Positions 16,287 to 42,813 of a stretch of 42,983 nt of DNA are shown here, in pieces. The position numbers were made by a program, and so were the translations under genes. Source of the DNA: Phascolarctobacterium sp. (GTDB lineage Bacteria > Bacillota > Negativicutes > Acidaminococcales > Acidaminococcaceae); the NCBI GenBank assembly GCA_017452325.1, contig JAFTMR010000015.1, positions 1 through 42,983 of the forward strand. The letters run 5' to 3'. The first letter of the stretch is position 1. The number at the start of each line of letters is the position of its first letter. The notes beneath the pieces were generated by a model. The model searched no databases. It was given only the letters and a program-made list of their open reading frames with translations, and was not told where the DNA came from.

Positions 16287-16816
16287 TACCTTTCTATTCC
16301 AGTCCGCGCCATAATCCCTTTGTCCTTAGGGTGCTTGCGCTTGCAAATCTCAGAAATATAATCAGCCAGCTCTACTAATTCAGGAAAAGGGTTACGCCCA
16401 GTCATAACCACTTCCAATTCTTGGGGCTTGTTTCGCAGAAAATCTAAGAGTGCTTCCTTATCGAACACTCCCCTATCACAGGCGCCAACTACCTCGTCCA
16501 AAATCAGCAGGTCTATTTTTTCGTCCACACATTTCTTTTTGACAGTCTCAAACAGTGCTAAATGCTCCTTGGTAACCTGCGCCTTTTCTTCCGCATTCAT
16601 CTGGAAGGTGAATTTAGGAGTTTCTTTGGCACGCATTACCTCGATGTTTGGCAGCAGAGCAAGACTGTTCAGTTCCCCTGTACGCCACGCCTTCAAAAAT
16701 TGTACAAAAAGAACTTTATTACCATGACCGCAACAGCGCACTGCCAAGCCAAGGGAAGCAGTGGTCTTCCCCTTGCCGTCACCGCAGTAAATATGAATCA
16801 AGCCGCCGTCCTTCAT
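16286..16816 (-). CDS. cobO: Cob(I)yrinic acid a,c-diamide adenosyltransferase (CobO/BtuR/CobA type)
   Basis: 176 residues, standard for the CobA/CobO branch. The N-terminal P-loop is GDGKGKTTA at residues 12-20. LLILDEVVGACDRG near 105 and VVMTGRNPFPELVELADYISE near 135 are family signatures. It adds the adenosyl group of ATP to reduced cobalt corrinoids. It starts directly at the cbiP stop and overlaps the start of cbiC by one base, so these three genes are tightly coupled. Confidence 0.95.
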   Translation of the reverse strand: MKDGGLIHIYCGDGKGKTTASLGLAVRCCGHGNKVLFVQFLKAWRTGELNSLALLPNIEVMRAKETPKFTFQMNAEEKAQVTKEHLALFETVKKKCVDEKIDLLILDEVVGACDRGVFDKEALLDFLRNKPQELEVVMTGRNPFPELVELADYISEICKRKHPKDKGIMARTGIER

Positions 16817-18340: not shown

Positions 18341-18341
18341 A

Positions 18342-20532: not shown

Positions 20533-20547
20533 AGCTTTCACCCTTCG

Positions 20548-21516: not shown

Positions 21517-21533
21517 AAACATCACCTAAAAAT

Positions 21534-22895: not shown

Positions 22896-22896
22896 G

Positions 22897-24108: not shown

Positions 24109-24162
24109 AGTTTTGCTCCTTTGTTCTTCATACAGTTTTCTTCATTAATATATGTCTTATCT

Positions 24163-24921
24163 TTAGTCTGCAAAATTCGCTTGCAGATATTTTAAGATTT
24201 CTTCGTAGCCCTCGCCCTGCTCTTCTGCCTGACGACCAACTACAATAATTTTTGCCCCTGCTTCCTTGGCAGCAGCAAGCTTTTCTTCAAAGCCGCCTGC
24301 GGTACCGGAATCCTTAGTCACCATAAATTTACTGCCAAACTTTTTCAAGGTGGCAATGTTCATCTCCTTGGAGAAGGGGCCTTGCATACATACGATGTTG
24401 GCAGGCTTGTAGCCAAGGTTAATGGCGCTAGCAAGGGAGCTTTCCATGGGAAGTACTCGCAGAGAGATACGCTCCTTATAATTCCTGACAGCAGTAAAGT
24501 CACGCAAATTCTTGCTTCCCGTTGTCAAAAAGATATTGCCTTCCAAATGATTCAGCAGCTCTACCGCTTCGTCAAAGTCACTAACATAAATGCAGTCCGA
24601 CCTTATACCCGCAGGTCTTAGCAGGCGTAGATACTTAATTTCCTCTAAAGTACAGGCTTCCTGTACAGTGGCAGTAACGATGGCAGCATAGGGATGGGTG
24701 GCATCAATAACACAGGCAGGACGATGGTTCTGTAAAAAGGTACGCATCTTCTGTAAATCCATCCGCTCTGCCAGAACAGTCAAGTTTCTCTGAGGCTCAA
24801 TGAGTGTAGCTCCGTAATCCGTAGCCACAGAAACGAAAAGTTCTATCTGTAAATTTGCCATTGCCTTAATCAAGGCGCGTCCCTCACTGGTACCGCCAAT
24901 GAGCCAAACTACAGGCTTCAT
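24163..24921 (-). CDS. cbiJ: Cobalt-precorrin-6A reductase CbiJ (CobK)
   Basis: 252 residues, standard for CbiJ/CobK. The N-terminal WLIGGTSEGRAL is the family's nucleotide-binding opening. IDATHPYAAIVTATVQEAC near 75-93 and FMVTKDSGTAGGFEEKLAAA near 205 are conserved family blocks. It reduces cobalt-precorrin-6A with a pyridine nucleotide. The ATG overlaps the cbiH stop in an ATGA arrangement, so translation is coupled. Confidence 0.93.
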   Translation of the reverse strand: MKPVVWLIGGTSEGRALIKAMANLQIELFVSVATDYGATLIEPQRNLTVLAERMDLQKMRTFLQNHRPACVIDATHPYAAIVTATVQEACTLEEIKYLRLLRPAGIRSDCIYVSDFDEAVELLNHLEGNIFLTTGSKNLRDFTAVRNYKERISLRVLPMESSLASAINLGYKPANIVCMQGPFSKEMNIATLKKFGSKFMVTKDSGTAGGFEEKLAAAKEAGAKIIVVGRQAEEQGEGYEEILKYLQANFAD

Positions 24922-25649
24922 GCTAATCTGTAACCGCGAGGAGTTACCAGCTTGCCGTTAATAACTTGGGTTTGGCTGTTGCCGATAATAACGGTGGAAA
25001 ACATATCCACTTTCATCTCACGCAGCTCTTGGAGAGTGGTAATCTCGCAAGCTTCACCTTCGCGGCCAATGTTACGCACGATACCGGCAGGCACGTCACC
25101 ACGCTGGTTCTTGAGCATAATGTCACAAGCACGTTGTAAATAATCGTGACGCTTAATACTGGACGGATTGTAAAGGCAGATGCAGAAATCTGCTTGAGAA
25201 GCGCAGTCCAGACGTTTTTCAATTTTTTCCCAGGGAGTGAGCAGGTCACTGAGGGAAATAAGGCAGAAGTCGCTAATCAGCGGCGCACCCAAGACTGCTG
25301 CGCCGGAGCAGGCAGCTGTGATACCGGGTACTACTTCAATTTCCACTTCCGGGTGGTCAGCGGCAACCTGATACATAATGCCAGCCATACCGTAAACACC
25401 GGCATCACCACTGGAAATCATAGCAACGGTTTGACCTTTTAAAGCTTCCTCCAAAGTCAGCTTGCAACGGTCAACTTCCTTACGCATCCCCGTAGAAAGG
25501 AATTTTTTATCAGCAAAATCTTCTTTAATCAAATTTACATATACATGGTAACCTGCAATAACATCACAGGAATTCAGCGCATCAATGGCGCGTTTGGTCA
25601 TTTGCTCCACGCCGCCGGGGCCAAGACCTACAACAAAAATTTTAGCCAT
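24918..25649 (-). CDS. cbiH: Cobalt-precorrin-3B C17-methyltransferase CbiH (CobJ)
   Basis: 243 residues of the tetrapyrrole methylase fold. It opens with VVGLGPGGVEQMTKRAIDAL, followed by SSGDAGVYGMAGIMYQ near 80, VVPGITAACSGAAVLGAPL near 105 and CLYNPSSIKRHDYLQRAC near 155. The LYNPSS block is typical of the C17 enzyme. It methylates C17 and drives ring contraction. It starts 13 bases after the cbiG stop and overlaps cbiJ by four bases. Confidence 0.94.
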   Translation of the reverse strand: MAKIFVVGLGPGGVEQMTKRAIDALNSCDVIAGYHVYVNLIKEDFADKKFLSTGMRKEVDRCKLTLEEALKGQTVAMISSGDAGVYGMAGIMYQVAADHPEVEIEVVPGITAACSGAAVLGAPLISDFCLISLSDLLTPWEKIEKRLDCASQADFCICLYNPSSIKRHDYLQRACDIMLKNQRGDVPAGIVRNIGREGEACEITTLQELREMKVDMFSTVIIGNSQTQVINGKLVTPRGYRLA

Positions 25650-25662
25650 CTCTTTACCATCC

Positions 25663-26733
25663 TTACTCGGTTTTCAAACCGGTTTTATTTAAATCTAACG
25701 TAATATCTTCAATAGCAATAGCAAGGGTTACACCATTAAGACTCTTCTTCGGCAACAGCAGCTTACCGCCACCGCTCGCCTTAACCGCACTGCGCTCGCA
25801 CACATTGCTTACGCCCACAACACTCTTGACAAAATCCGAAGGAGTAAAATCTCCCTCAACCTTCTGTAATTCCTCAGCGCTGTAAAAATTGGTACGCCAT
25901 TTGTATTTTTGTGCGAAGTCTAGCAGACCTTGCTCATCCTGCTTCAAATCCACGGAAGCAATATCCACAACACAACGCTTGTCAATTTTCAGACGTTCCA
26001 GTTCCGGAAGCACAAGGGCTTCAATAGCTTCCAAGGGAGTGTTCCTGCGACAGCCAATGCCCAGATGCACAATCTTCGGTAAAAGACGTACCGTAGTCAA
26101 AAATGGTTGTGCCATTTTGTCCAAGGTTACTGCCATTCCCACAAGATACTTGCCCTTTTCCTTAGTCTGCTCTATTTGACGGGGCAAAGGCTCCACAATG
26201 GGGAAATCACTATACAAGCCCACCACATCATTGTGAACTAATGCACCTGCAAAATCCTTCGCCGCATTCAGAGAGCAGATAACCATTCTGTTTCGCGCCG
26301 CCCATTCATCCACTGCAAATAAACCGTTAACATCGGTGGCAGTAGTAACGCAGGCCTGACCGCCAATATGCGCCGCCAATACTCGCGCCAGTTCATTAGC
26401 ACCACCAATATGCCCTGCTACCAGAGGAATAATAAAATTACCACATTCATCCAAGGAAATTACGGCAGGGTCCACCAGCTTGCTTTTTAAATAAGGAGCA
26501 ATGGAGCGCACTGCAATACCTACGGAGCCAACATACACAATGGCCTGGCAATCCTTGAAGGCAGCTTCCGTCACTGCGTAATGGTTTCCCTCCATAGCAG
26601 GCAGCTGGGCTTCTTCCGCATATTTGGGCAGGGCTTCCACCTGTACCTCGTAACCCAGGCTTACCAGAAGCTCGCCCACCTTTTTACTTAGCTGTGCCCC
26701 ACGCAGGGAAAAGGAATATACTGCGGCACGCAT
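25663..26733 (-). CDS. cbiG: Cobalt-precorrin-5A hydrolase CbiG
   Basis: 356 residues, typical for stand-alone CbiG. It has an N-terminal domain (AIVYVGSVGIAVRSIAPYL near 70), the central HIGGANELARVLA near 113 with QACVTTATDVNGLFAVDEWA following, and the C-terminal CbiG_C domain (HLGIGCRRNTPLEAIEALV near 230). The enzyme opens the delta-lactone and releases the two-carbon fragment as acetaldehyde, the step specific to the anaerobic pathway. It lies one base after the cbiF stop. Confidence 0.95.
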   Translation of the reverse strand: MRAAVYSFSLRGAQLSKKVGELLVSLGYEVQVEALPKYAEEAQLPAMEGNHYAVTEAAFKDCQAIVYVGSVGIAVRSIAPYLKSKLVDPAVISLDECGNFIIPLVAGHIGGANELARVLAAHIGGQACVTTATDVNGLFAVDEWAARNRMVICSLNAAKDFAGALVHNDVVGLYSDFPIVEPLPRQIEQTKEKGKYLVGMAVTLDKMAQPFLTTVRLLPKIVHLGIGCRRNTPLEAIEALVLPELERLKIDKRCVVDIASVDLKQDEQGLLDFAQKYKWRTNFYSAEELQKVEGDFTPSDFVKSVVGVSNVCERSAVKASGGGKLLLPKKSLNGVTLAIAIEDITLDLNKTGLKTE

Positions 26734-26734
26734 T

Positions 26735-27520
26735 TTATTTAACCTCAGGCTTCAAGTTTAATTTAGAAGGGTCTGCTTGGCGGAACATATGGGTGTAGGT
26801 AGGATTGTAAAGCTCGCTACGCTCGTACTCACAGCCAAGGAAATCACCTACGGTAATCAAGGCAGTTTTGGTAATATTGTATTCTGCCGCACAAGCTGCA
26901 AGGGTACCTACAGTGCAACGCAACACCCTTTCATCAGGCCAAGAAGCCTTGTACACAATCGCTGCCGGTGTATCCGCCTTGTAACCGCCCCTAATGAGTT
27001 CATGTTGCAACTTATCCAGCATACCACTGGAAAGGAATATTACCATTGTAGCCTTGTGGGCTGCGTAATCAGCAATCTTTTGTTTAGGAGGAACGGGAGT
27101 TCTGCCTTCCATACGGGTAATGATTACAGATTGGCTCACATTAGGCAGGGTGTATTCAGCATCCAGGGCAGCAGCCGCCGCACAGAAGGAGCTTACGCCC
27201 GGCACAATTTCAAAATCCAAATTATAGCTACGCAGCAAATCGATTTGTTCGCGGTGAGCACCATACACACTGGGGTCACCGGTGTGCAAACGTACAACCA
27301 GCTTACCTTCTTGGGCAGCAGGCACCATTGCCGCAATAACTTCTTCCAAGGTCATGGAAGCACTGTCCATAATCACACACTCCGGTTTGGCATAATCCAA
27401 CAATCCCGGATTAACCAGAGAGCCTGCGTAAATAATCAGGTCTGCTTTTTCCAATAATTCTTTGCCTTTCACAGTAATCAAGTCAACTGCACCAGGACCA
27501 GCACCAATAAAATAAATCAT
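26735..27520 (-). CDS. cbiF: Cobalt-precorrin-4 C11-methyltransferase CbiF (CobM)
   Basis: 261 residues, tetrapyrrole methylase fold. It opens with FIGAGPGAVDLITVKGKELL; LHTGDPSVYGAHREQID near 79 and VPGVSSFCAAAAALDAEYTL near 106 are C11-enzyme signatures, and VIITRMEGRTPVP near 133 follows. It methylates C11 of cobalt-precorrin-4. Its ATG overlaps the cbiD stop by four bases. Confidence 0.95.
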   Translation of the reverse strand: MIYFIGAGPGAVDLITVKGKELLEKADLIIYAGSLVNPGLLDYAKPECVIMDSASMTLEEVIAAMVPAAQEGKLVVRLHTGDPSVYGAHREQIDLLRSYNLDFEIVPGVSSFCAAAAALDAEYTLPNVSQSVIITRMEGRTPVPPKQKIADYAAHKATMVIFLSSGMLDKLQHELIRGGYKADTPAAIVYKASWPDERVLRCTVGTLAACAAEYNITKTALITVGDFLGCEYERSELYNPTYTHMFRQADPSKLNLKPEVK

Positions 27521-28704
27521 TCTACTTCAATCTCCTTTACTTCACGTTTATGTAAGCTCACCAGCTGGTCAGCATCCTTGGTCTTGCCCAAGATGCCATA
27601 CACATTGGAGAACATCAACGCTCCTGTTTTTATTTTCCCATGCACCCTATGCTGCATATAAAAATCAATTTTTTTCGTAACCTCCTGCATCACAGGGGTA
27701 AAGATGTTTTCACGCTGCAAGATTTTTGATACCTCATCCGTAGTCAGGCAGTTGTAAATCTCCTGCCCCACTTCCTTAGAAGCACCATGGAACATTGCCT
27801 GCAAGGCAAAAACTTCCGTCCTGCAATCTGCGTATTTGGAATGAGTGTTCATTACCCCCTGGGCAAGCTTTGCCAATTTACCTGCGTGCCCAATTAAAAG
27901 CAGGGTTTCAAAACCGCAGAACACTGCATAATCCAGAAGCTCTCCCACAAAATTGCTACAGGTAACCCTGTCGGAAATATCCAGCTGCAAAACATCGCGG
28001 GTAAAATCTTCACCGTAGTTACCGAAGAACACTAAAAGGTTCTTATTGCCCTTCGCCTTTTGGGAATTAAGCTCCACATACATGGTTTCTACCAAAGCCT
28101 TTTCACTCATGGGCTCCACAATACCGCTAGTACCGAGAACGGAAAGGCCGCCCACAATTCCCAGGCGTGGGTTAAAGGTTTTCTTGGCAATCTCCACCCC
28201 TGCGGGAATGGAAATGGTTACCCGCAAAGCTCCTTGGTAATTATTCTGCTGTATTACCTTGGTCAGCTCTGATGTAATCATCTTACGGGGCGTAGGGTTG
28301 ATGGCAGGCCCTCCCATCTGGCAGGAAAGGCCCGGCTTGGTAACCTTGCCAATACCAATGCCACCGCAAATTTCTATGCAAGCTTCCTTTCCGGAAAGCT
28401 CGTCGTCATTTTGTTCAAGTCTATTTATCTTCTCAACCTTGGCGTAGACAAGGACGCCGTTAGTATCGTCAGGGTCGTCGCCAGAATCCTTGCGGATGGC
28501 ACAACTTACATAGTTACTGCCTCGCTCCACCTCCAGCGGTTCTAAATCTAAAGTAATACCCTTGGGAGTATCAATGCGGATTACCTCCACCCTTTCTCCC
28601 GTCAGCAGCATGGTTGCCGCAGCCTTGGCGGCAGCAGTAGCACAACTTCCCGTAGTATAACCACAGCGCAGGTTCTTGCCCTGCGAAAATTGATATTCCT
28701 CCAC
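27517..28704 (-). CDS. cbiD: Cobalt-precorrin-5B C1-methyltransferase CbiD
   Basis: About 395 residues. The frame reaches a GTG at 28728 inside the preceding gene, but AAAGGAG eight bases before a GTG at 28704 marks the likely start. RCGYTTGSCATAAAKAA near the N-terminus is the family hallmark. The GGLSVLGTSGIVEPMSEKAL block near 185 and LLIGHAGKLAKLAQGVMNTHS near 270 also match. CbiD methylates C1 and belongs to the anaerobic route. It is the first corrin-ring gene of the operon, directly after the ABC exporter. Confidence 0.94.
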   Translation of the reverse strand: MEEYQFSQGKNLRCGYTTGSCATAAAKAAATMLLTGERVEVIRIDTPKGITLDLEPLEVERGSNYVSCAIRKDSGDDPDDTNGVLVYAKVEKINRLEQNDDELSGKEACIEICGGIGIGKVTKPGLSCQMGGPAINPTPRKMITSELTKVIQQNNYQGALRVTISIPAGVEIAKKTFNPRLGIVGGLSVLGTSGIVEPMSEKALVETMYVELNSQKAKGNKNLLVFFGNYGEDFTRDVLQLDISDRVTCSNFVGELLDYAVFCGFETLLLIGHAGKLAKLAQGVMNTHSKYADCRTEVFALQAMFHGASKEVGQEIYNCLTTDEVSKILQRENIFTPVMQEVTKKIDFYMQHRVHGKIKTGALMFSNVYGILGKTKDADQLVSLHKREVKEIEVE

Positions 28705-28717
28705 AGCCTCAGCTCCT

Positions 28718-30430
28718 TTATTGTTCACTTAACTCATATAATTTTTTATAGATGCCATTCTTGGCAAGCAGCTCCTCATGCTTACCTATTTCTGCAATCT
28801 CTCCATCGTGAAGCACCACGATACGGTCAGCATTAATAATAGTAGAAAGACGATGAGCGATAATCAGCGTCGTTCTATTTTGGGAAAGCTTGTCCAAAGC
28901 AGCTTGAATTTGTTTTTCCGTCCTTGTGTCGAGAGCAGAGGTTGCCTCGTCCAGAATAAGTACGGGAGGATTTTTCAGGAACACCCTAGCAATGGCAAGG
29001 CGTTGCTTCTGTCCACCACTTAGCTTTACGCCCCGCTCGCCAATCCCCGTAGCGTAGCCCTCCGGCAAACGCCTGATGAATTCATCAGCGGCAGCAAGCT
29101 TGGCAGCTTCAACAATCTCCTCTTCCGTAGCTCCCATCTTGCCATAGGCAATGTTGAAGTTCACAGAATCAGAGAACAGGAACACGTCCTGCTGTACCAA
29201 ACCAATCTGTTTACGCAGGCCCTGCTGTTGGTAGCGGTTAACGTCCACACCGTCCAACAGGATTCTCCCCTGTTCAGGCTCATAAAAGCGTAGGAGCAAA
29301 TTGGCAATGGTAGTCTTGCCTGCTCCCGTAGTCCCTACAAAAGCAACCTTTTCACCGGGAGCAATGCGTAAATTTATATTTTGTAAAACTCTTTGACCAT
29401 CAAGGTAGCCAAAGGTTACGTTATCAAAAACTATCTCACCCTTAATATTGGTGCAGGCTACTGCATCCGGAGCGTCAGCAATGTCTTCCGGTTGAGAGAT
29501 GATCTCGTGAAAGCGGGCGAAGCCTACCATACCACGCTGATACATTTCCGTAAACACCGTCAAGCGTAGCAAGGGCTTCATAAACAGGTTTACATATAAT
29601 AGGAAGGCAACAAAATCGCTCAAGGTAAGTTCATCCGCAGCGATTAGCAAGCCACCACAGCCTAACAGAGCAAGATTGGTAATATTAGTAAAGAAATTGA
29701 CCGTACTATTAAAATAGGACAGTAGCTTGTAGGAAGAAATGCGTGTGTTCCGCAGCTCATCACTCTTATCCATAAAGCGTAACCGTTCCGCCTGCTCACA
29801 GGCAAAAGCCTTCACCAAGCGCACACCGCCCAAAGCTTCTTCTGCCTGCGCTGCCAGCTCACCGGATTTAGCACGATTCCTACGAAAAGCATTCTTCATC
29901 TTACGGTTGACAATTACCGTATGAATTGCCTTGACCAGTAGCAAAACTGCAATTAAAGCTCCCAAGGTTGGGTTCATCCATACCAGAATACCCAAGGTAC
30001 CCGCCATAGTAATACAGCAAATGAATAAATCATTGGGACCGCGGTAGGTAAGCTCGCTAATTTCTACAATGTCGCTGGTCAAACGGGAAAGCAGCTGCCC
30101 CGTCTTACTATTGTCGTAAAAACGGAAGGACATTTTTTGCAGATGGCTGAACAAATCCCTGCGCATATCATTTTCAATGGAAGCGCTCATAATATGCCCA
30201 AAATAGTTGATGGCAAACAGCAGGGCAAAATTAAAACAGTACAAACCAAAGAGAATGATAATCCAGTACAGGATGCCTTCCACATTTTTCTGAGGCAGCT
30301 CCACGTTCATTATATGGCGTACCAAAATGGGGAAAATAAGATCCAAAACCGCCGCCACACAGGAACCAAGCACCACACCGCTAAAATGCAGTTTGTAGGG
30401 ACGATAGTAAGCAAGAAAATCTTTCAACAT
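28718..30430 (-). CDS. ABC exporter half-transporter (membrane plus ATPase domains, MsbA/LmrA type)
   Basis: 570 residues from the ATG at 30430, which overlaps the TGA of the upstream gene; GGGAGG lies nine bases before it. The N-terminal type I exporter membrane domain has about six helices. The C-terminal ATPase has Walker A GTTGAGKTTIANLL near 363, signature LSGGQKQRLAIA near 470 and Walker B VLILDEATSALD. It would work as a homodimer, since no partner half is beside it. Substrate is unknown. Its place between the beta-propeller and cbiD, within overlapping genes, suggests a role in corrinoid or metal handling rather than general drug export. Confidence 0.85.
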   Translation of the reverse strand: MLKDFLAYYRPYKLHFSGVVLGSCVAAVLDLIFPILVRHIMNVELPQKNVEGILYWIIILFGLYCFNFALLFAINYFGHIMSASIENDMRRDLFSHLQKMSFRFYDNSKTGQLLSRLTSDIVEISELTYRGPNDLFICCITMAGTLGILVWMNPTLGALIAVLLLVKAIHTVIVNRKMKNAFRRNRAKSGELAAQAEEALGGVRLVKAFACEQAERLRFMDKSDELRNTRISSYKLLSYFNSTVNFFTNITNLALLGCGGLLIAADELTLSDFVAFLLYVNLFMKPLLRLTVFTEMYQRGMVGFARFHEIISQPEDIADAPDAVACTNIKGEIVFDNVTFGYLDGQRVLQNINLRIAPGEKVAFVGTTGAGKTTIANLLLRFYEPEQGRILLDGVDVNRYQQQGLRKQIGLVQQDVFLFSDSVNFNIAYGKMGATEEEIVEAAKLAAADEFIRRLPEGYATGIGERGVKLSGGQKQRLAIARVFLKNPPVLILDEATSALDTRTEKQIQAALDKLSQNRTTLIIAHRLSTIINADRIVVLHDGEIAEIGKHEELLAKNGIYKKLYELSEQ

Positions 30431-31845
30431 CACTTCCTACCTCCCGCTACTTGGGAAGTATCCCAAATGTGCAGCCTGTAGGCTCCCAAAATTTTTCCTT
30501 GGGAAGTTAGGGCAGGCGCTTCCACAGCGGCAACCTTCCTGCCATCAGCACTGATATCTATAGCTTGGCAAGGTCCTTCCGTCTGGAAGAAAAGTTTTTC
30601 CTTGCCGTCCTGCAAATCTACTAAGAGCATGCCATGAGCAGCGTAGTTGTGAGTACGCACGTTACGCCCTACGGCACAGGCTACTAAATTATCCGCAAAA
30701 GCAAGCTCCTCCATTGTTCCCTCTGCTTGGAACTGGTATTTAAAATTACCTTCCGTATCGAAAAGGAAGATACTGTTATTACTGGGATGCTCCAAGGGAG
30801 TGGGCAGCTGCCAGTTCTCCCGGTTAAAGGTGTTAATGGTGGTAAAGACCACGCCGTAATCAGTAACGAAGCCGTCACGTCCGGAAGCGTTAATCCAAGT
30901 GCTATCCACATAGGCAGGCTTGGAAACGAAGCGTGTCCACAGGATGTTCCCCACTTCATCAAAGAGGAGCCCCCTGCCGTCGCTACAGGACGCCGCCAAA
31001 AACCTTCCGTCCTTGGAATAGTTGGGGCTACTGCGGACAACAGTATTTTCAAAGGGCGGTACAGGCGGAACCCATACAGAATTCAGCATCTCCCCCGTCT
31101 TCTTATCCAAAAAGTACAGGGTGTCCCGATATTTCATATCCGGTCTGTAATCGTAGGCAGAGGTGGAGATTACCACCTTGCCATTGTTATCGTTAACATC
31201 ACACCAATTTATCCAGCAGTCGATATTTTCTGTAGCAGGGTATTGCCACAGCAGCTTACCTTCATTGGTGATAGCAAGCATTTTGGCGTTATAGCTTCTG
31301 GTTCCGTCCTTGGTCATCTTAAAACGGTAGGAGTTGGCGTAAACATTATCCTCCTTATCCACCGCAATATGGACAATGGAAGGATGGGAGCGTAAGGACG
31401 CCTCCGTCCCTACAAAATCCGAAGCCTTGTGCTGCCAACGGATGTCACCGCTTTTCACGTCAATGGCGAAGAGACTGCCTTCCGGACTGGTTTCGCCAAT
31501 GTAAGCCGTTTTCGTATCGTTGCTGATACAAACGGAAATCAGCTTGCCAATGCCAAGGGAGCGTTTCCACAGCTGACGTCCTTCATTGCTAAAGAGGAAC
31601 AGCTCACCCCGCTCCGTACCCACCAGCCAAGCATCCTCCGATTGGATGTAACGGACAATGGCTTTGGTAAAACCCATACGGTCGTAATTAATGGTAGGAA
31701 TATCCCCCAAATAGGCACTCACACCATTTTCATTATCGCTAATATGAAATTGATTCCACGGCGTGCGGCTGCCCGTTATCCAATACAGAGCACACCAGCT
31801 TACCGCAAGTGTAATCAGAGCCAACCAGCCCTTTACATTTTTCAT
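30430..31845 (-). CDS. Membrane-anchored beta-propeller (PQQ/WD-like repeat) protein
   Basis: 471 residues from the ATG at 31845, which overlaps the T-component stop as ATGA; a TTG at 31863 is a worse alternative. A single N-terminal hydrophobic segment (about residues 5-23) would anchor it outside the cytoplasmic membrane. The rest is beta-rich with recurring blade motifs such as GELFLFSNEGRQLWKRSLG, GSLFAIDVKSGDIRWQHKA, GLLFDEVGNILWTRF and MLLVDLQDGKEKLFF, giving about six or seven blades. No catalytic PQQ dehydrogenase residues are recognised. It lies between ECF subunits and an ABC exporter, so a substrate-capture or assembly role is possible. Confidence 0.75.
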   Translation of the reverse strand: MKNVKGWLALITLAVSWCALYWITGSRTPWNQFHISDNENGVSAYLGDIPTINYDRMGFTKAIVRYIQSEDAWLVGTERGELFLFSNEGRQLWKRSLGIGKLISVCISNDTKTAYIGETSPEGSLFAIDVKSGDIRWQHKASDFVGTEASLRSHPSIVHIAVDKEDNVYANSYRFKMTKDGTRSYNAKMLAITNEGKLLWQYPATENIDCWINWCDVNDNNGKVVISTSAYDYRPDMKYRDTLYFLDKKTGEMLNSVWVPPVPPFENTVVRSSPNYSKDGRFLAASCSDGRGLLFDEVGNILWTRFVSKPAYVDSTWINASGRDGFVTDYGVVFTTINTFNRENWQLPTPLEHPSNNSIFLFDTEGNFKYQFQAEGTMEELAFADNLVACAVGRNVRTHNYAAHGMLLVDLQDGKEKLFFQTEGPCQAIDISADGRKVAAVEAPALTSQGKILGAYRLHIWDTSQVAGGRK

Positions 31846-32717
31846 AAGTATAATTTCGTCCAATCATAAGCTTGACGAAGCACGCCAAAGTACAAGCCCT
31901 GCTCCGACAAAAGGTAGGAAATTTTGCTGCTGACAATCACAGCAACCACAAGTGTTAAAGTTATACAACAAAATTTTTCACGCCAGTCCCACATAGCGGC
32001 TTGTCTATTGGCGCTGGCAAGGAAGAATCCCCTGCTGACAACGGAAAGAGCCAAGGTCTGCGCCCGTCTTAGGCAACGCGCCAATAATGGCTTGGCGATA
32101 TATGGCAAGTGACGGATGATTGCAGTCCTGCCACTATGACTATCACTGCGCAATTGCAGCGCCGTAATAACTTCTCCGGTTTCCGCAGCCAGTACCGGCA
32201 AAAAGCGGATGGCGGTAACAAGCATAAAGGCAATTTGGGGCGAAAGCCGCCACGCCAGTAAGGCTTGTAGTAATTGGCGGGGGTCGCTGGTCCAGCACAC
32301 CAAAAGTCCCAGGCTCATCATGCTGGCAGAGCGCAAGCCCTGCACCGCTCCGTACAAAATGCCTTCCCGATAAACATACAGCCCACCGGTCAACGCACCC
32401 AAGAAGCCTGCGTTGGACTCAATGAGTACGAATAAGGGAGTGCGTGTGCTTTGGGCGAAGAACAGCGCCTGACTGAACATGCTTCCCCACAAACCAAGGA
32501 GGAGCAGTACTGCCAACACCTTCCATTTATAAATGGAAGTACCTGCCGCCACATGCAAAAGCAGTGTTAAAGAAAAAAGTACAAACAGACTGCGGGGGTT
32601 ATCAATGGTAATGGTGAGGATGGCGAATAAAAAGAGCACTATCAGCTTGGTACGACCGTTCAATTTTTGAATCCAGGGAGCGGCGTCAGTGCCTTCCCAC
32701 AGTTGACGAACTGACAT
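31842..32717 (-). CDS. ECF transporter transmembrane T component (EcfT/CbiQ family)
   Basis: 291 residues with five or six membrane helices. LNGRTKLIVLFLFAI near residue 19 is the usual EcfT opening, and TSDPRQLLQALLAWRLSPQIAFML near 143 is a family block. A SVVSRGF segment near 223 carries the Ala-Arg-Gly-type coupling-helix motif that docks on the ATPases, preceded by CLRRAQTLAL. GGAGGTG before the ATG supports the start. It overlaps the end of the fused ATPase gene by 31 bases. Confidence 0.87.
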   Translation of the reverse strand: MSVRQLWEGTDAAPWIQKLNGRTKLIVLFLFAILTITIDNPRSLFVLFSLTLLLHVAAGTSIYKWKVLAVLLLLGLWGSMFSQALFFAQSTRTPLFVLIESNAGFLGALTGGLYVYREGILYGAVQGLRSASMMSLGLLVCWTSDPRQLLQALLAWRLSPQIAFMLVTAIRFLPVLAAETGEVITALQLRSDSHSGRTAIIRHLPYIAKPLLARCLRRAQTLALSVVSRGFFLASANRQAAMWDWREKFCCITLTLVVAVIVSSKISYLLSEQGLYFGVLRQAYDWTKLYL

Positions 32718-34343: not shown

Positions 34344-36011
34344 TCATTCCCCCATTACCTGACGCAGCTTGAGGCCAGTCTTATTCCCCAGCCAGCTACC
34401 AATGCTGCTGTACAGCAAGCCGTTAATAACCATATACAAAGCCAAATACCAATCTGCGTAATACAGACGGTAGAAGAACATCATCTGCTCTAAATTGATG
34501 AAAGTGATAAAGGCATCCGCAAGCCCAAGCAGTACACACATCAGGAGCATAAAGTTTTCCTTGGAATGGGTATGCTTGTAGAAACCGCCAAAATAAAGGG
34601 TTGCTTCCAGCACCACCATGGAAACGCAGCAGCTTAACACACCTAACGGAGAGAAATGCCCAAACATCAAACAGGAGAGCATAAACTTTACTACAAACAT
34701 CAGGCTTAAAACGCCGGGTGTACGGTACAAAACCAAAAGGGACACTATCAAAAGGTATTGCAAGACGCCATGGAGCAAGCCTGTTACCAAACCGGAGAAA
34801 GGTCCTAAGAAAACGTGGAGCAAATCACCCAAAATAGTAGTAGGCAGGGTAATGCCACCAAAGGCTATTGCCGCAAAGAGGGCAACTGTAATGGCACCCT
34901 TGGCGCCAATAATATAAATGCAGTTTTTAATCTTATAACTAAAGGCTATAACAAGCACTAAGCAGGCAAAGGCAAAGCCTACAGCCAAAAGACCAATGCT
35001 ATGCTTCTTGGCAATGGTAACCGGAGCCTCGTACCGCTTCTCCTGTCCATTACCGGATATCGTAATGCGCAGATTGTATTCGCCTTCTAAAATCTTCAAG
35101 TGGTCTATATATAATGGAAGAATAAATCGTGGAGCCTTGTTCCCGTCCAAGGAAATCAGCGCCGTAGTTTCGCTTCCCTCTTCCTCATTACCATGCCAGC
35201 CCTGCTCCGCATCGTCATCCACCTTGCCTGCAGTACACAAGCCGGGCTTAACCTCGCCGGTAACCTTATCCACCAGCTCTGCCTTGAATTTCAAAACACG
35301 CACGTCACTTTGGGGATTGCGCAATTCCAAAAGCAAATGCGCCGCCGGATGGTTAAAGACGGAGCTCCAGCTGGTAGCACCCTCGCCGGTCATACGGTTG
35401 CGGAAGCCCTCCAAAGAAGTATCGCGAACATAAATCACGCCAGCTTCCGCCCTGTCATCCTTCAACCCCAAGCTATCTACGGGGAAGGTAATGCTTTGGA
35501 TGTACCAGTTAAACTTTTTGCGATCCACCTTGGGCTTGCCCTTACCAATGGTAGCGGCAGCAGCCTGCTCTGCCTCGTAGGTAAAGGTCAAAAGCTTACT
35601 TTCCTGCCACTCACCACTGCTCGCCTCCACCAGCACCTGCTTTTCGCCAAAGTCAACAGCCTCCTGAGATTCAATGTAAAGCAAATCAAAGGTCTGCCCG
35701 TAATCTTCCGGCAAGCTCCATCTGGTAGTAGCAATAATCTTGTCCTGCTCCTTTTGTACCTGCCATTTATCAGCAGTGCCTTCGGTTACAGGCATGAAGC
35801 CTTGGGGCAAAGTAATTTTAATCTCCGCTTCTACAGGAGTAGGATTATTAAAATTAACTATGTTCACATACAGGGGAACGGTACTTTCTTCAAAAACAGT
35901 ATGCACTCCCTGTCTCTCCAAATGGTAGGGATATTCAGCTTCCAACTTCATTCCGGCACAAGCTGCCTGCACATAACTCAAAAGCAGTAGCACCAGTATC
36001 CAAATTCGCAT
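34344..36011 (-). CDS. ECF S-component-like membrane protein with large N-terminal extracytoplasmic domain
   Basis: 555 residues from the ATG at 36011, with GGAG six bases upstream; a TTG at 36023 also opens the frame. A signal peptide (MRIWILVLLLLSYVQAACAG) precedes about 310 beta-rich extracytoplasmic residues. From about 340 come seven or so hydrophobic segments, including GAITVALFAAIAFGGI, LGPFSGLVTGLLHGV and a final LYMVINGLLYSSIGSWLG, which resemble S components. Ordinary S components have about 180-220 residues and no such domain. It lacks the MHIxEG start of CbiM, so it is not a standard cobalt permease. Gene order S, A-A, T supports the assignment. Confidence 0.7.
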   Translation of the reverse strand: MRIWILVLLLLSYVQAACAGMKLEAEYPYHLERQGVHTVFEESTVPLYVNIVNFNNPTPVEAEIKITLPQGFMPVTEGTADKWQVQKEQDKIIATTRWSLPEDYGQTFDLLYIESQEAVDFGEKQVLVEASSGEWQESKLLTFTYEAEQAAAATIGKGKPKVDRKKFNWYIQSITFPVDSLGLKDDRAEAGVIYVRDTSLEGFRNRMTGEGATSWSSVFNHPAAHLLLELRNPQSDVRVLKFKAELVDKVTGEVKPGLCTAGKVDDDAEQGWHGNEEEGSETTALISLDGNKAPRFILPLYIDHLKILEGEYNLRITISGNGQEKRYEAPVTIAKKHSIGLLAVGFAFACLVLVIAFSYKIKNCIYIIGAKGAITVALFAAIAFGGITLPTTILGDLLHVFLGPFSGLVTGLLHGVLQYLLIVSLLVLYRTPGVLSLMFVVKFMLSCLMFGHFSPLGVLSCCVSMVVLEATLYFGGFYKHTHSKENFMLLMCVLLGLADAFITFINLEQMMFFYRLYYADWYLALYMVINGLLYSSIGSWLGNKTGLKLRQVMGE

Positions 36012-36041
36012 CTTCTTCTCCAATCAAACATCTAAGCTAAA

Positions 36042-36099: not shown

Positions 36100-36705
36100 C
36101 TATTTCTGTTGCTTAGCTTCCTTGGCAGCCTGCTCCCTAGCAGCTTGCTCTGCCGCAGCTACGTCAGCTACAAATTTCTGGCACACCTCGTAAAGAGCTT
36201 CCGCAAAAGATTTTTCCGGAATGGGGGCAAACTTTCCCTTGTTCTTCTTCACGTCAATTTGCCTATCCGTATTGGTAAAAACCTGCATGGTCTTTACGGT
36301 ATAAGCTTTTTCCTTCATCTTATACTGCATATCCATTTTGCAGTACAACACCTTTTCCTTACCTTCAAGCTTACCAGCGTAATCCTGTTTCAATTTTTTC
36401 AATACGTCTTTATTGGTGAACACAGTCTTGACCAGAACATTGACCATGTTTCTGTCGTACTCATCATTTTTGTCCTTGGCAAAATCCAAGGAACCCATAT
36501 CGTAAGCGTACACACCCAAATCATTTTCTACTACCACGCTCCAACGGGCAGCTTCAATTTCTTCGGCAGTAGGCTTGGGCATCATGCTAATCTCCCAGTT
36601 CATAGGGTCTTGGTTCGGTTGAGGAACAGGGTTATTGGCAAAGGCAGTACCTGCACACACCAACAAACTCATACACATCCATACCATCAGGAAAAACTTT
36701 TTCAT
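36100..36705 (-). CDS. Secreted protein, possibly surface-adhesin-E-like fold
   Basis: 201 residues. A clear signal peptide (MKKFFLMVWMCMSLLVCAGT, cleavage after AFA) is followed by a small beta-rich domain. WSVVVENDLGVYAYDMGSLDF, a VNVLVKTVFTN strand and the C-terminal EALYEVCQKF resemble the Adhesin_E (PF16747) pattern of aromatic and single-cysteine positions. This is a tentative match by eye. The tail is an Ala/Glu/Lys/Gln-rich helix. It has its own promoter with the shared operator, and a terminator on each side. Its product probably acts in the periplasm; function unknown. Confidence 0.75.
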   Translation of the reverse strand: MKKFFLMVWMCMSLLVCAGTAFANNPVPQPNQDPMNWEISMMPKPTAEEIEAARWSVVVENDLGVYAYDMGSLDFAKDKNDEYDRNMVNVLVKTVFTNKDVLKKLKQDYAGKLEGKEKVLYCKMDMQYKMKEKAYTVKTMQVFTNTDRQIDVKKNKGKFAPIPEKSFAEALYEVCQKFVADVAAAEQAAREQAAKEAKQQK

Positions 36706-36872: not shown

Positions 36873-37871
36873 TTATTTTGCTTGCAATGCTTCCCAAGCT
36901 TGGCTTGCCTTTTTCACGAAAAGGTTTTGTACGTCGGTGTTTTCACCCAAGCCATGGAGATACACATCAACCTTATAGCCTTCTTTAAGCAGCAGGGATT
37001 TAAAGGAATCCTCTTCATCACCAGCCATATCATTCATAGCGTGGTCGCCAGCAACCATCATCAAGGGCATCAAGGTTACATTTTTAATTTTTCTTTCCTT
37101 GAGTTCTTCTAATACATTATCAAAGGTAGGCCAGCCTTCTACAGAAAAAATGAGCGCGTTCTTATAGCCCAAATCCTCCAGTTTATCCTGCATTACTGCG
37201 TAATAAGCATTTGCCGGATGAGGAGTACCATGAGCCATTACCAAAATAGCATCCTTTTTCCCAGCTTCCGGGAATTGGGTTGCCAAAGCCGCCATGGTAT
37301 CTGCAACATCATCCTCCTTATCCTCTTGACCTTGCCAGTACATCAAAGGAGTACCAAAGGTAATCTTTTTAAAATCATTCTTGTGCAGATTGAACACTGC
37401 CTTTTTGTAATCATATTCAATACCGGGGATGATGTCCAAGGAAGTCATGGCAACGCGGGTATAGCCTTCTTCCTTGAGCTGTACCAAAGCCTCTTCCGGA
37501 GTAGGGATTACCAAGCCTTCATTAGCCTTAACCCTATCAATAATAATATGGGAGGTATAAGCAACTACAACTTTGGTCTCAGGGTACAGGGTTTTAATGG
37601 CATTGACAGTAGCATCAATATTTTTCTCGCGGGTTTCCTTAATGGTAGTACCAAAGCTCATAATAAGAATGGCATCCTTGTCTGCCAAATTTTGCAGCTC
37701 CACAGTTTCATGGGTGAGCACGCCCACTTGAGCAGCTTGCTTCAAAGCAATGGTAGGAGCCTTCACCTCTTCACTCAATTGGAAGCTGCCTGCATTACCA
37801 ACTGCGGCAAAGCCACAGCCAACTGCACATAACAAACCCATTGCCAACATCTTTTTCAAATTCATTTTCAT
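36873..37871 (-). CDS. cbiK: Periplasmic sirohydrochlorin cobaltochelatase CbiK (CbiKP-type)
   Basis: 332 residues from the ATG at 37871, with GAGGAG eight bases upstream; a GTG at 37880 is possible. The N-terminus (MKMNLKKMLAMGLLCAVGCG, then FAAVGNA) is a signal peptide, which cytosolic CbiK lacks. The catalytic framework is complete: H214 in VMAHGTPHPAN, E245 in FSVEGWPTFDN and H277 in MMVAGDHAMNDMAGD. CbiK inserts cobalt into sirohydrochlorin. A secreted form, CbiKP, is known from Desulfovibrio vulgaris, where its role is linked to metal or haem transport. It is the last gene of the TonB-receptor operon. No cytosolic CbiK or CbiX is in the window. Confidence 0.9.
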   Translation of the reverse strand: MKMNLKKMLAMGLLCAVGCGFAAVGNAGSFQLSEEVKAPTIALKQAAQVGVLTHETVELQNLADKDAILIMSFGTTIKETREKNIDATVNAIKTLYPETKVVVAYTSHIIIDRVKANEGLVIPTPEEALVQLKEEGYTRVAMTSLDIIPGIEYDYKKAVFNLHKNDFKKITFGTPLMYWQGQEDKEDDVADTMAALATQFPEAGKKDAILVMAHGTPHPANAYYAVMQDKLEDLGYKNALIFSVEGWPTFDNVLEELKERKIKNVTLMPLMMVAGDHAMNDMAGDEEDSFKSLLLKEGYKVDVYLHGLGENTDVQNLFVKKASQAWEALQAK

Positions 37872-37887
37872 ATATATCACTCCTCAC

Positions 37888-38721
37888 TTAAAACTGACAT
37901 ATTTTTTGCAGCAGGGCATTTTCCTTTGCCTTCTCCTGCCCATTGACCTTGGTTGTAATCTCCAGATTATTGTTCAGTGGATTACGAGTTACCTGAATAT
38001 CCGCGTCATAAGCGCGGCTCAAAAGTTCTTCCGTAAACGCCTGCTCCGGTGGTGCGTCAGCAAGCAGTTTGCCCTCGCCCAAAAGGAGGATGCGGGAGCA
38101 GTACTTGGCGGCAAAATTCAGCTCGTGTACCACCATCAGAATAGTCTTCCCCATTTGAGCAAGCTCCTTGGCAAAACGGAAGATTTCTTCCTGATAAACC
38201 ATGTCAAGTCCCGTAGTGGGCTCGTCCAAAAATAAAATAGGTGTCTGCTGCGCCAAAACCTTTGCCAAAAGAATACGTTGCTTCTGACCACCGCTCACCT
38301 CCGTCACAGGAGTATCAGCAAGTTCCAAGGTTCCGGTGTAATCCATACAGTCCAGGGCAAGCTGTTTATCTGCCTCGTTCTCGCTCTCCCACCATTTCAT
38401 ATAGGGATAGCGGCCTGCCAGCACTACGTCCTGACCAGTATAACCAAAGCCAACCTCCACGTGCTGTTGCAGATAGGCAACCTTGCAAGCCAGCTCCTTT
38501 TCATGATAGTCCTCCAAAGCTTTATGAAAGAACAGCACCTCACCACTATGCTTGGGTAAAATACCGCGAATAGTTTTGAGCAAGGTACTCTTGCCGGCAC
38601 CGTTCCTTCCAATGATGCCCACAATCTCTCCCGCGCAAATAGAAGCATTAACGCCGGAAAGCACATGGCGGGCACCATACCCAATGGTTAAATTTTTTAG
38701 CTCAATAATAGTTTCAGACAT
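37888..38721 (-). CDS. ABC importer ATPase (BtuD/FepC-like)
   Basis: 277 residues. Walker A is GRNGAGKSTLLKTI near 36, the signature is VSGGQKQRILLAKVL near 137, and Walker B is ILFLDEPTTGLD, followed by the H-loop MVVHELN. The overall layout matches ATPases of iron-siderophore/B12 importers. A C-terminal extension of about 35 residues beyond DAPPEQAFTEELL is slightly longer than usual. It is preceded by the binding lipoprotein after 14 bases and followed by cbiK. The matching FecCD-type permease is not in the window. Confidence 0.88.
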   Translation of the reverse strand: MSETIIELKNLTIGYGARHVLSGVNASICAGEIVGIIGRNGAGKSTLLKTIRGILPKHSGEVLFFHKALEDYHEKELACKVAYLQQHVEVGFGYTGQDVVLAGRYPYMKWWESENEADKQLALDCMDYTGTLELADTPVTEVSGGQKQRILLAKVLAQQTPILFLDEPTTGLDMVYQEEIFRFAKELAQMGKTILMVVHELNFAAKYCSRILLLGEGKLLADAPPEQAFTEELLSRAYDADIQVTRNPLNNNLEITTKVNGQEKAKENALLQKICQF

Positions 38722-38735
38722 AGGGTCAGCTCCAA

Positions 38736-39695
38736 TTAGTGTAGGTATTCCGGGTAAACAAGCTTCGCCATATGCTCCGCACCTTCTAAAATATAATGAG
38801 AGGTACAGTAGCGATAGCGCTCCGGAAATTTATAAACAGCCTTGTTCTTCACGCACTTTAAATCCTTGTAGGCAGGGTCACTTACTATCTGCTGAAAGTA
38901 GGTATCAGAATTTTGACTGCCCTTGGCATCCCAAGAGGGCAAAAACAAAACGTCAGGGTTAAGCTCCACAATCTTTTCCTTACTTACAGGCATGCTGGCG
39001 CGGACGGGCATAATCTCCATACCGTTTTGCACATGTGCCAAATCGCAGAGCATACCAAAAATATTCTGCAACATTCCGTAGGTTCCGCTATAAGTAAGCT
39101 GAATTACAAGCTTCTGCTTATCCTTGGGAATAACCGCCAGCTTTTCCGCCAAAGCCTTCTCGCCAGCCTCCATCTTTTGAATCAGGCTAGTGCCCTTCTC
39201 CTTTTGATTGACCAGCTCACTTAATTTAGCAATACTCTTTTTAATATCAGGATAGGTCTCCGCCGCATCAAGCATAAAGACACGCACCCCCATATCCTCC
39301 AATGTAGCACTCACTTCGGGATTGGTAAGCGGTGTGGTAATGAACAGGTCGGGCTTGTACTTCAAGACCTGTTCCACCGTAATGCGGGGACGATATTTAT
39401 TGGGAATCTTCTTGGAAAGCTCCGCGGTCATAGAGTAATTAGGGTCTGCCGCAGAAACCGAGGTGGCAATGAAATGCTCCACAGGTACCATTTCCAGAAG
39501 AATATCCTGAAAAGCAAGGCTTGTTGTCATCATTCTGGTAGGCGGCTCCACAAATTGGAACACCTTGCCTCTATCATCAGCGACGCTATAAGTAGCATTC
39601 GCAGTATTTTCTTTTTCAACGGGTTTGCTCTCATTTGCACAACCAAGTACAAAACAGATAAGCAAAGCGAGCAATAAAATTAAAGTTTTCTTCAT
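38736..39695 (-). CDS. Corrinoid/siderophore-type ABC substrate-binding lipoprotein (BtuF-like)
   Basis: 319 residues. A lipoprotein signal peptide ends in FVLGC with the lipidated Cys at 19, so it is anchored at the outer face of the cytoplasmic membrane. The domain layout is that of class III binding proteins with a long connecting helix: RITVEQVLKYKPDLFITT near 105 in lobe 1, a helix around 150-180, and NPDVLFLPSWDAKG near 240 in lobe 2. Substrate could be a corrinoid, haem or metal chelate. The riboswitch upstream favours a corrinoid. AAAGG nine bases before the ATG supports the start. Confidence 0.85.
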   Translation of the reverse strand: MKKTLILLLALLICFVLGCANESKPVEKENTANATYSVADDRGKVFQFVEPPTRMMTTSLAFQDILLEMVPVEHFIATSVSAADPNYSMTAELSKKIPNKYRPRITVEQVLKYKPDLFITTPLTNPEVSATLEDMGVRVFMLDAAETYPDIKKSIAKLSELVNQKEKGTSLIQKMEAGEKALAEKLAVIPKDKQKLVIQLTYSGTYGMLQNIFGMLCDLAHVQNGMEIMPVRASMPVSKEKIVELNPDVLFLPSWDAKGSQNSDTYFQQIVSDPAYKDLKCVKNKAVYKFPERYRYCTSHYILEGAEHMAKLVYPEYLH

Positions 39696-40419: not shown

Positions 40420-42453
40420 TTAGAAGGAGTATTCGTAACCAAGCATGAAGTTACGACCCATAGCATAATATGCATAAGTATCTTCGTCAGGACCATTACT
40501 AGTAGTATAATCAGCTCTATCGAACAAGTTATTTACATGTAAGAACACCTTATGATTTTTTTCTGGTTCATAAGTAAAGTGCAAATCTGTGTAAAGTGCG
40601 GGTCTTACTTTACCACCTTCGTCATGACGTTCACCAATATAGTTAGCCATCAAAGAAGCTGTGGTTTTTTCATAATGATAGTTCAATCCCAAATTAAATT
40701 GTAATTGATTATGTGTTTTAACCCATTCGCCTACATTGCCTTTATCATCAATATGTCTGGTTTTAGGATTGCTATAGGTAATACCATAATAACTATCAAA
40801 ATTATCATTATGTTTAATGTTGCAAGACAATTCAATGCCTAAATTTTCAGCATCGTTATTTTCATACACAAGATTGCCAGCTGAAGCAGAAGTACCTTCT
40901 TTAGCTTCAATTGAATCTTTGATATCATAATGGAACAAAGCTAAACGCCAAGAACGATTATTTTCATTAAATTTATAACCAACTTCGTAGTGTGTACCCT
41001 GTTCCGGCTTCAATTCAGGAGAAGCCAAAATTACGCTACCACCAAATAATTTTGTCAACTCAGGTAATCGGAAAGATTTACCAGCTTTGGCATAAAAAGT
41101 ACTATCATCATTTATTTTCTTGATATATTGCAACTCAGGAGTAAATTTATTTACATCGTCTTTCTTACTATCATTAGATACGCCTGTCTCCAAATTATCT
41201 TCAGTACCATCACAATTTCTAACTATTGTTTCTCGCAAATTCAGAATCAAATTATCTGTGTCATTCATTTGCCAATCGTAAGAAGCATACAATGAATAAA
41301 CATCTCTTACATAATCTCCAGTTCTTTCAGGTTTTGCCGGTGTACTACCCATTGCTTTGGTAGGTGAATTGTATACATCTAAATCTTCTTTTTTAAATGT
41401 GGCACCAATTAAAAATTTATCTTTTTTATTAACATCCCAAGACTTTTGTATATCGATATTAGTGTTATGCCCTTTTCGCCAACTATACTTAAAAGCTTTA
41501 TCTATAGAACCATCTTGCTTTTTAAAATTTACTTGGTCATAATTTCTTTCTTGTGTATTGTAAGAAACATTTGCAATAAATCCATTTTGGTCATCATATC
41601 TAACAATAAAATTGTTGTTATGATCTTCATACTCTTTACTTTGATATGGACTTTTCAAATATCTATTATCCATAACATCAACAGTATTGTTTGTTTTCGA
41701 GTAGTTATAAGTAAATTTAAGATTATCGTTGACATTATAATTAAACAATAATCCTTTGTTTTCACCTTTTGAATAATTATAATACTGCTGATATTTAGTT
41801 TTGCCCATAGTCTTATTTACAACAGTAGTCATCGGGCTCATTTCCCCTCTATTATCCAAGTGAGTCAATAAGCTAAATTTCTCATTACCAACATTAACAG
41901 AATATCTTTCTCTACCATAGTTGCCAGCAGAGACTTTAATGCTATTTCTTACCTTATTTTTAGTAATGATATTAACTACACCACCAGTTGCTTCAGAACC
42001 ATACAATACGGCACCGCCACCACGAACAATTTCAATCTTTTCAATAATATCAGTAGGAATATCTTCAAGGTTGTACTTGCCATCTTGGTTTAAAGGCATA
42101 CCATCAAGCATAACCAAAGTTCCTTTGTCTACGCCACGAATATCAATCTTACTAGTCATTGAACCAAGTGCAACACCATTAGGACCTTGGCTAGAAGCAA
42201 AAATACCTAAAGCACCTCTTAATACTTCAAAAGCATTGCCAGCACCACTTTTTTCAATACGTTCATTATCAATAACTTCAACCGCTGCAGCGGTATCTAA
42301 ATCCATTTTCTCCATTCTGCTTGCAGTAACAATCATCGGGTCAAGAGTAAACTCTTGTAAGGTGGTTTCACTTGCGTGTACCGCTGTACCCCCCCATTGC
42401 ACAGAGCCCAAAATGAGCGCTGTCATCAACATAGCCTTAGTCATCTTTTTCAT
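40420..42453 (-). CDS. btuB: TonB-dependent outer-membrane receptor (BtuB-like)
   Basis: 677 residues. A signal peptide ends near AVHA, followed by a TonB-box-like [12 protein letters not shown]. The plug domain spans about 45-160, with [38 protein letters not shown] and GGVVNIITK as plug signatures. The rest is a 22-strand-type beta-barrel ending FMLGYEYSF with the terminal phenylalanine needed for barrel assembly. The size, plug motifs and the cobalamin riboswitch in its leader support corrinoid uptake. Related corrinoid or metal chelates cannot be excluded, given cbiK in the same unit. AGGAGATG precedes the ATG. Barrel codons are AT-rich, as common for loops under selection. Confidence 0.87.
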
Positions 42454-42577: not shown

Positions 42578-42633
42578 AGAAAAACTAATCGTTCTTTTAC
42601 CTTGACTGTCTCGCGCAGTGTTAGTAAATCGCT

Positions 42634-42782
42634 TAACAGGCAGGTCTTCTGACTAAGGTTCATCGCAACTTCAAGCCTTCCCAGTTTTATCCAGTGACAT
42701 TTTTTGAAGCGCTCACCATCACAGCGACGGGATCGTGTGGGAATCGCACCCAGCTTCCTCTCTAAGAGTTGAGTACCTGTTA
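42634..42782 (-). promoter_or_regulatory. Cobalamin riboswitch aptamer
   Basis: On the minus strand the closing stem P1 is TAACAGG (42776-42782) with CCTGTTA (42634-42640). Between them are conserved blocks: GGTGCGATTCCCACACGATC followed by CCGTCGCTGTGATGG, then TCACTGG in the place of the GCCACTG B12 box, then GGGAAGGC, and AGTCAGAAGACCTGCC near the 3' end. These match the AdoCbl/Cbl riboswitch class. With bound corrinoid the downstream terminator should form and switch the operon off. The rest of 42454-42633 is leader with no coding sequence. Confidence 0.95.
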
Positions 42783-42813
42783 GCTAATATTTATTAATTT
42801 TATTACGTTTCTT

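Follow-up and report, generated by a model that had tools for sequence, protein, structure and literature searches.

Why would an ECF S component carry a large exported domain, and what would a transporter built around such a protein import? This question is raised by a gene in a 42,983-nucleotide stretch of DNA from Phascolarctobacterium sp. (contig JAFTMR010000015.1), hereafter the window, which we analysed together with related loci from other genomes (designated L021, L024 and so on). Considering the predicted structures, the gene neighbourhoods and the distribution of the family, we think it likely that the gene belongs to a B12-regulated importer of a cobalt, corrinoid or tetrapyrrole substrate, with the whole path as proposed below.

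Layout and fold of the S-fusion protein

The S-fusion protein begins with a hydrophobic signal sequence that ends in an A-C-A-like site, and a hydrophobic N-terminus was also present in the aligned relatives; an alternative in-frame TTG start lies at 36023, four codons upstream of the ATG (Table 1). A sequence-only reading of this gene had described a signal peptide followed by about 310 extracytoplasmic residues, in good agreement with the signal peptide and approximately 318 extracytoplasmic residues found here, in which strands were modelled from residue 20 to 335. The C-terminal domain consists of six helices in the predicted structure. No Pfam or NCBIfam model recognises the protein; the same layout was found in 23 full-length relatives, and because these align over the whole length, from end to end, a chance open reading frame or an assembly artefact can be excluded.

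Table 1. Features of the window surrounding the S-fusion gene, in descending order of position.
Feature	Position	Strand	Remarks
Cobalamin riboswitch upstream of the operon	42622..42795	-	RF00174, 88.2 bits, E 1.3e-20
TonB-dependent outer-membrane receptor	40420..42453	-	
Solute-binding lipoprotein (PF01497)	38736..39695	-	without adjoining permease gene
FecE/HmuV-like ATPase	37888..38721	-	
CbiK chelatase with signal peptide	36873..37880	-	only CbiK found in the genome
Small secreted protein, no family match	36100..36705	-	between cbiK and the S-fusion gene; 92% identical in L021
S-fusion protein	34344..36011	-	555 aa; ATG start at 36011, stop at 34344-34346
Signal peptide, residues 1-18	35958..36011	-	MRIWILVLLLLSYVQAACAG
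First extracytoplasmic beta-sandwich, residues 19-148	35568..35957	-	structure model; Ig/macroglobulin-like matches
Second extracytoplasmic beta domain, residues 169-336	35004..35507	-	structure model; conservation
Tethering transmembrane helix, residues 339-357	34941..34997	-	full-length and membrane-part models
ECF S-component domain, residues 367-555	34347..34913	-	fold comparison and profile-profile comparison
Double ECF ATPase (A-A' fused), 553 residues	32686..34347	-	two ABC_tran stretches, TIGR04520/04521
ECF T component, CbiQ family	31842..32717	-	PF02361, E 2.6e-23
Membrane-anchored periplasmic beta-propeller (PQQ/BamB-like repeats)	30430..31863	-	PF13360, E 2.2e-9; conserved partner
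MsbA-type ABC exporter	28718..30433	-	downstream, same gene run
Anaerobic cobalamin biosynthesis genes	15648..28728	-	named from translated sequence; CbiD confirmed by PF01888

The claim that the C-terminal part is an ECF S component was upheld by both fold and profile comparisons. With the full-length model as query, Foldseek returned matches to the secreted half only, and the S half was folded alone instead. Modelled separately, as the sequence-only reading had proposed, on the alignment of 23 sequences (pLDDT 87, pTM 0.83), the membrane part matched the S-component fold, the top PDB match in Foldseek being 5edl (E 0.0038, probability 1.00, TM 0.60/0.65), the thiamine S component YkoE (PMC5037267). 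Realignment with VIA-align also placed YkoE first (Z 14.2, rmsd 3.0 over 173 residues). It was followed by two entries of TmRibU (Z 13.2 and 12.5) and by 3p5n (Z 11.4), an S component solved in 2010, with ThiT, FolT, PanT and CbiM further down the list (Z 10.3 for ThiT to 8.7 for CbiM) and unrelated monooxygenase subunits mixed in at Z about 11. ECF S components thus made up the top four rows and 10 of the first 15. Chance alone can take mostly helical models to a Z of about 13, and the S-fold call therefore rests on this share of 10 in 15, on alignments that cover the domain completely and on an independent sequence test. In that test, profile-profile comparison (hhalign) with 13 YkoE-type (PF09819) proteins collected from other Bacillota gave 91.9% probability (E 7e-7) along the domain. 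PF09819 itself matched one of the 23 family members (E 0.0032), the S-fusion protein of the window gave no match at its cut-off, and nothing credible came from searching PDB sequences with the complete protein or with a profile of either half. By its predicted fold, the membrane part is an ECF S component.

Conservation within the S domain was highest in the predicted extracytoplasmic loops, namely loop L5 (YRLYYADW; mean 4.09 bits of 4.39) and loop L3 (FGHFSP; 3.71), and low in the predicted cytoplasmic loop L4 (2.04 bits), the sidedness being taken from the model and from the positive charges that follow the tethering helix. Since known S components bind substrate at the outer face, the concentration of conserved residues in the outer loops suggests that the fusion has probably left substrate binding to the membrane domain, where standard S components bind theirs too. 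The invariant residues of this domain are rich in Tyr, Trp and Phe, with one Arg, Asp and Glu in addition, and look more suited to an organic-ligand pocket.

What, then, does the exported half contribute? According to the sequence-only reading, the fused domain could itself be a tethered ligand receiver, making the protein a hybrid between ECF and binding-protein-dependent import. The domain is indeed exported, kept in every member of the family and tethered beside the outer face of the S domain, yet the other properties that we observed did not bear this proposal out, and we regard it as unlikely. The fold matches listed for residues 19-148 came from many unrelated proteins and were Ig-like or macroglobulin-like sandwiches; a second beta domain, better conserved than the first, spans residues 169-336. 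Mean column identity was 46% in the fused half versus 64% in the membrane half, and the invariant residues of the fused domain were mostly Gly, Pro, Asp and Asn of a structural type, with few side chains suited to binding. Solute-binding-protein, NikK and NikL folds were absent among the listed matches of the secreted domain, an absence that does not amount to disproof, and the Pfam matches of the 23 members, taken up to E 1, included no NikK (DUF4198) or NikL family. Together, the models and the conservation pattern make the fused domain look like a scaffold or structural module, with a profile too unspecific to name a function; its placement in the full-length model (pTM 0.57) is unreliable.

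The ECF cassette and its beta-propeller partner

The S-fusion gene is followed by a series of gene overlaps, in which its stop overlaps the start of the ATPase gene, the ATPase gene overlaps the T gene and the T gene overlaps the propeller gene. Because of this arrangement, the four genes very likely form one translationally coupled unit. As in group I ECF systems, the T component and the two ATPase domains are dedicated and lie in the same operon, so that, judged from gene content, the S-A-A'-T set is a dedicated (group I) ECF transporter for which ATP-driven transport is predicted.

Across the 27 loci compared, all of which contain the S-fusion gene by selection, a T component was found in 26 and a PQQ/BamB-like propeller in 25; one of the two loci without a propeller, L066, stops at a contig edge. 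The propeller contains many invariant residues, both polar and aromatic, including the motif N-T-x-N-x-x-N-W-(Q)-x-x-x-P-x-x-H-P-x-x-N. Because it is almost always co-encoded and carries this dense invariant polar motif, the propeller appears, on conservation, to be a stronger candidate than the fused domain for the part of periplasmic receiver, and its near-constant presence as a separate protein further argues against a receiver role of the fused domain.

A TonB-dependent receptor was found in 18 of the 27 loci, TonB-type proteins in 10 and ExbB in seven. ChlI/ChlD-type chelatase subunits (nine loci), ABC-2 permeases (seven) and radical SAM proteins (five) were further neighbours, and CbiZ, a CbiS-type hydrolase and a B12-receptor-like TonB protein also occurred in the loci of relatives.

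We propose that, in Bacillota with a Gram-negative envelope, the cassette would act as a group I ECF importer that scarcity of corrinoid switches on. A TonB-dependent receptor would bring the substrate into the periplasm, where the membrane-anchored propeller, docked on the two fused beta-sandwich domains, would capture or guide it. The six-helix S domain would then take the substrate on its outer side and, driven by T component and double ATPase, topple to release it inside. Several types of exporter (MsbA, ABC-2, RND) are encoded nearby, raising the possibility that the cassette is not an importer at all and that the S-like protein serves in sensing or in the assembly of an exporter; given an S-A-A'-T gene set that is complete and overlapping and a fold of the ECF type, we consider this very unlikely.

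Two features of the neighbourhoods are recorded here as observations. In the window, a FecE-like ATPase and a solute-binding protein (37888-39695) are encoded with no permease gene beside them, FecCD permeases being present elsewhere in the genome; in L029 (9159-10004) and L024 (5176-6060), the gene immediately before the S-fusion gene encodes a FecE-like ATPase, and both a permease and a solute-binding protein are missing beside it. A xylose-isomerase-like TIM-barrel protein recurs in L061 (5431-6393), L069 (6066-7031), L058 (2345-3316) and L024 (16114-17067), for a reason that is not obvious.

Cobalamin control, distribution and candidate substrates

A riboswitch scan of the window found only the cobalamin riboswitch above the gathering score, with no THI-box control. 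On the same strand and at most 7 kb upstream of the S gene, a cobalamin riboswitch was present at 12 of the 16 subfamily-1 loci, window included, and in two of them it lies directly before the gene, at distances of 137 (L068) and 211 bases (L073); none was found in the stretch of L075, also of subfamily 1, that was read. The background in 16 cassette-bearing genomes was 196 cobalamin riboswitches in about 55 Mb, or one per 281 kb, so that approximately 0.2 of 16 loci would be expected by chance if riboswitches were evenly spread; their clustering with B12 genes is the very association that this comparison brings out. Downstream in the window, the cobalamin genes are cbiD, cbiF, cbiG, cbiH, cbiJ, cbiET, a cobB/cbiA-type gene, cbiB, cobD, cobQ, cobA and cbiC.

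The second subfamily, with proteins of about 630 residues, is homologous over almost the whole length, and its loci had no cobalamin riboswitch nearby. Subfamily-2 or distant members of 560-636 aa occur with CobN in L065, L067, L070, L071, L072 and L081, several of them also with ChlI/ChlD-type chelatase subunits. Because of this combination of CobN and ChlI/ChlD with the lack of a nearby riboswitch, the substrate may differ between subfamilies 1 and 2.

A survey of fusion homologues in Negativicutes, which the sequence-only reading had recommended, showed that the fusion is conserved there. The full architecture was found in 49 of 380 sampled genomes of the class, with identity down to 27%, and in two genomes outside it; the class search, at E up to 0.001, matched 51 of 380 genomes, two of them with weak 46-residue matches, and a phylum-wide sample matched three of 398, namely the window genome and the two outside the class. 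An earlier set of relatives contained the same architecture in 21 of 61 genomes. Named loci belong to Phascolarctobacterium, to other Acidaminococcaceae and Selenomonadales and to one MAG labelled Acholeplasmataceae, a spread that indicates Negativicutes as the class, and the cassette is present in the cultured P. faecium DSM 14760 (L029). No relative of the S-fusion protein was found on plasmids. In the family to which the window genome belongs, every cassette-bearing genome was CbiD-positive (20 of 20, versus 23 of 39 of the rest; Fisher p 4e-4, ignoring shared ancestry), a pattern more in keeping with a part in B12 synthesis than with salvage alone.

As the most likely substrate, these data suggest a molecule of B12 metabolism that contains cobalt or is of the tetrapyrrole type. 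If it were free Co2+, the cassette would be a functional substitute for CbiMNQO that supplies cobalt to the anaerobic pathway. The B12 riboswitch and B12 operon fit this possibility, as does the confinement to CbiD-positive genomes, and its own genus has CbiD and lacks both CbiM and a NicO permease; a PF01891 (CbiM) search of the whole window genome, which is about 90% complete and bears the cassette, gave no match, and the search for a NicO permease found none across the family of that genome. Known metal sites of CbiM and NikM use the protein's own N-terminus, however, and here such a site is blocked, the N-terminus being taken by the secreted domain. Among CbiD-positive members of the family, moreover, CbiM occurred in three of 20 cassette-positive and three of 23 cassette-negative genomes (p 1.0). 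The cassette was therefore rejected as a clean replacement for CbiM, the two not being mutually exclusive in the family. With the aromatic S-domain invariants also speaking against it, import of free Co2+ seems to us rather unlikely, and because the CbiM-type site cannot form and the conserved residues suit an organic ligand, a corrinoid, a tetrapyrrole or a cobalt chelate is slightly preferred. A BtuF/FecE-type system is present in several of the cassette neighbourhoods and could carry the corrinoid instead.

Chelatases raise a further possibility. Cobalt has to be inserted by a chelatase in the anaerobic B12 pathway, and CobN was found in 12 of the 27 loci and CbiK in five, with one or the other in 17. 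In the window genome, the sole CbiK found carries a signal peptide and CbiX was not found, these genome-wide checks being family searches in a genome about 90% complete. An exporter follows the cassette, which would allow a loop in which a tetrapyrrole is exported, loaded with cobalt outside the cytoplasm by CbiK and re-imported by the ECF system as cobalt-tetrapyrrole. Given the incompleteness of the genome, the CbiK proteins without signal peptide in L062, L074 and L082 and the second CbiK in many relatives, we judge this loop to be very unlikely. The broader proposal, that an S component with its own periplasmic scaffold and a propeller receptor imports a cobalt-loaded tetrapyrrole, possibly metallated by exported CbiK, is doubtful; if true, it would link TonB-dependent outer-membrane uptake directly to the ECF engine.

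A separate observation concerns L069 (2611-5993) and L074 (4928-8304), where a NifH-like protein (CfbC/NifH) and nitrogenase-component-1-like genes lie upstream of the cassette in a B12-riboswitch neighbourhood. In L074 the NifH-like protein scored just below both cut-offs and the genes adjoin CbiK. These gene sets resemble a B12-controlled reductive pathway for a tetrapyrrole.

Comparison with known systems

The sequence-only reading had allowed that the family might already be described with a known function. None was found in the literature searched, mostly non-subscription journals, and this holds for the fusion of an S component with a secreted domain, for the cassette and for the combination of a fused, exported two-domain scaffold with a constant propeller; the group I ECF principle is already known.

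The closest parallel is YkoEDC, the group I ECF thiamine transporter, which shares the S fold, the arrangement of S, double ATPase and T genes in one operon and riboswitch control. YkoE differs in having no signal peptide, fused extracytoplasmic domain or propeller, and in being controlled by a THI box instead of a cobalamin riboswitch. Because the PF09819 cut-off was not reached and no THI box was found, we would not file the cassette under YkoE. With CbiMNQO, NikMNQO and NikKMLQO, the cassette shares the B12 riboswitch and operon context, a CbiQ-type T component and accessory extracytoplasmic parts, of which the CbiN loop (PMC7689651) and NikK and NikL (PMC2667541) are the established examples among metal ECF systems. 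In the S-fusion cassette, however, the accessory domain is fused and large and the ATPase is double, and the aligned members have a signal-peptide N-terminus, which precludes a metal site of the kind that CbiM forms there. It is the absence of PF01891 together with this blocked N-terminus that keeps the cassette out of CbiM/NikM.

Corrinoids or tetrapyrroles are likewise handled by ECF-type systems in the BtuM-type B12 S components and the LhaSTA heme transporter (PMC6072759, PMC7299338), but their S proteins are short and unfused, and no sequence relation to the S-fusion protein was found. A TonB receptor, a cobalamin riboswitch and periplasmic capture before the inner membrane are common to BtuB-BtuFCD and the cassette, which differs in using an ECF module as energiser rather than BtuCD and has no solute-binding-protein fold among the listed fusion matches. 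Operon-2 of D. restrictus, which encodes transporters, CbiZ, CobN and magnesium-chelatase subunits and is up 46-fold at low corrinoid (PMC4285132), resembles the subfamily-2 neighbourhood in gene content.

In other Bacillota, L095 (838-2016), L097 (865-1899) and, by sequence, L096 encode a YkoE-type S domain (PF09819) with an extra C-terminal helix and a PF00174-like domain. We suggest that here an S component was fused independently a second time, in this case to a probable extracytoplasmic domain of the molybdopterin-oxidoreductase type.

ECF transporters are known mostly from one-membrane bacteria, and their short S proteins bind substrate without periplasmic helpers. The family described here would show the ECF principle adapted to an outer-membrane envelope, with an exported fused scaffold, a near-constant propeller, usually a TonB receptor and, in most cases, a B12 riboswitch nearby. 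The cassette is a concrete candidate for cobalt or corrinoid supply in Negativicutes that lack CbiM or NicO, and it suggests roles, open to experiment, for protein families that still lack a name in Phascolarctobacterium and other gut bacteria.
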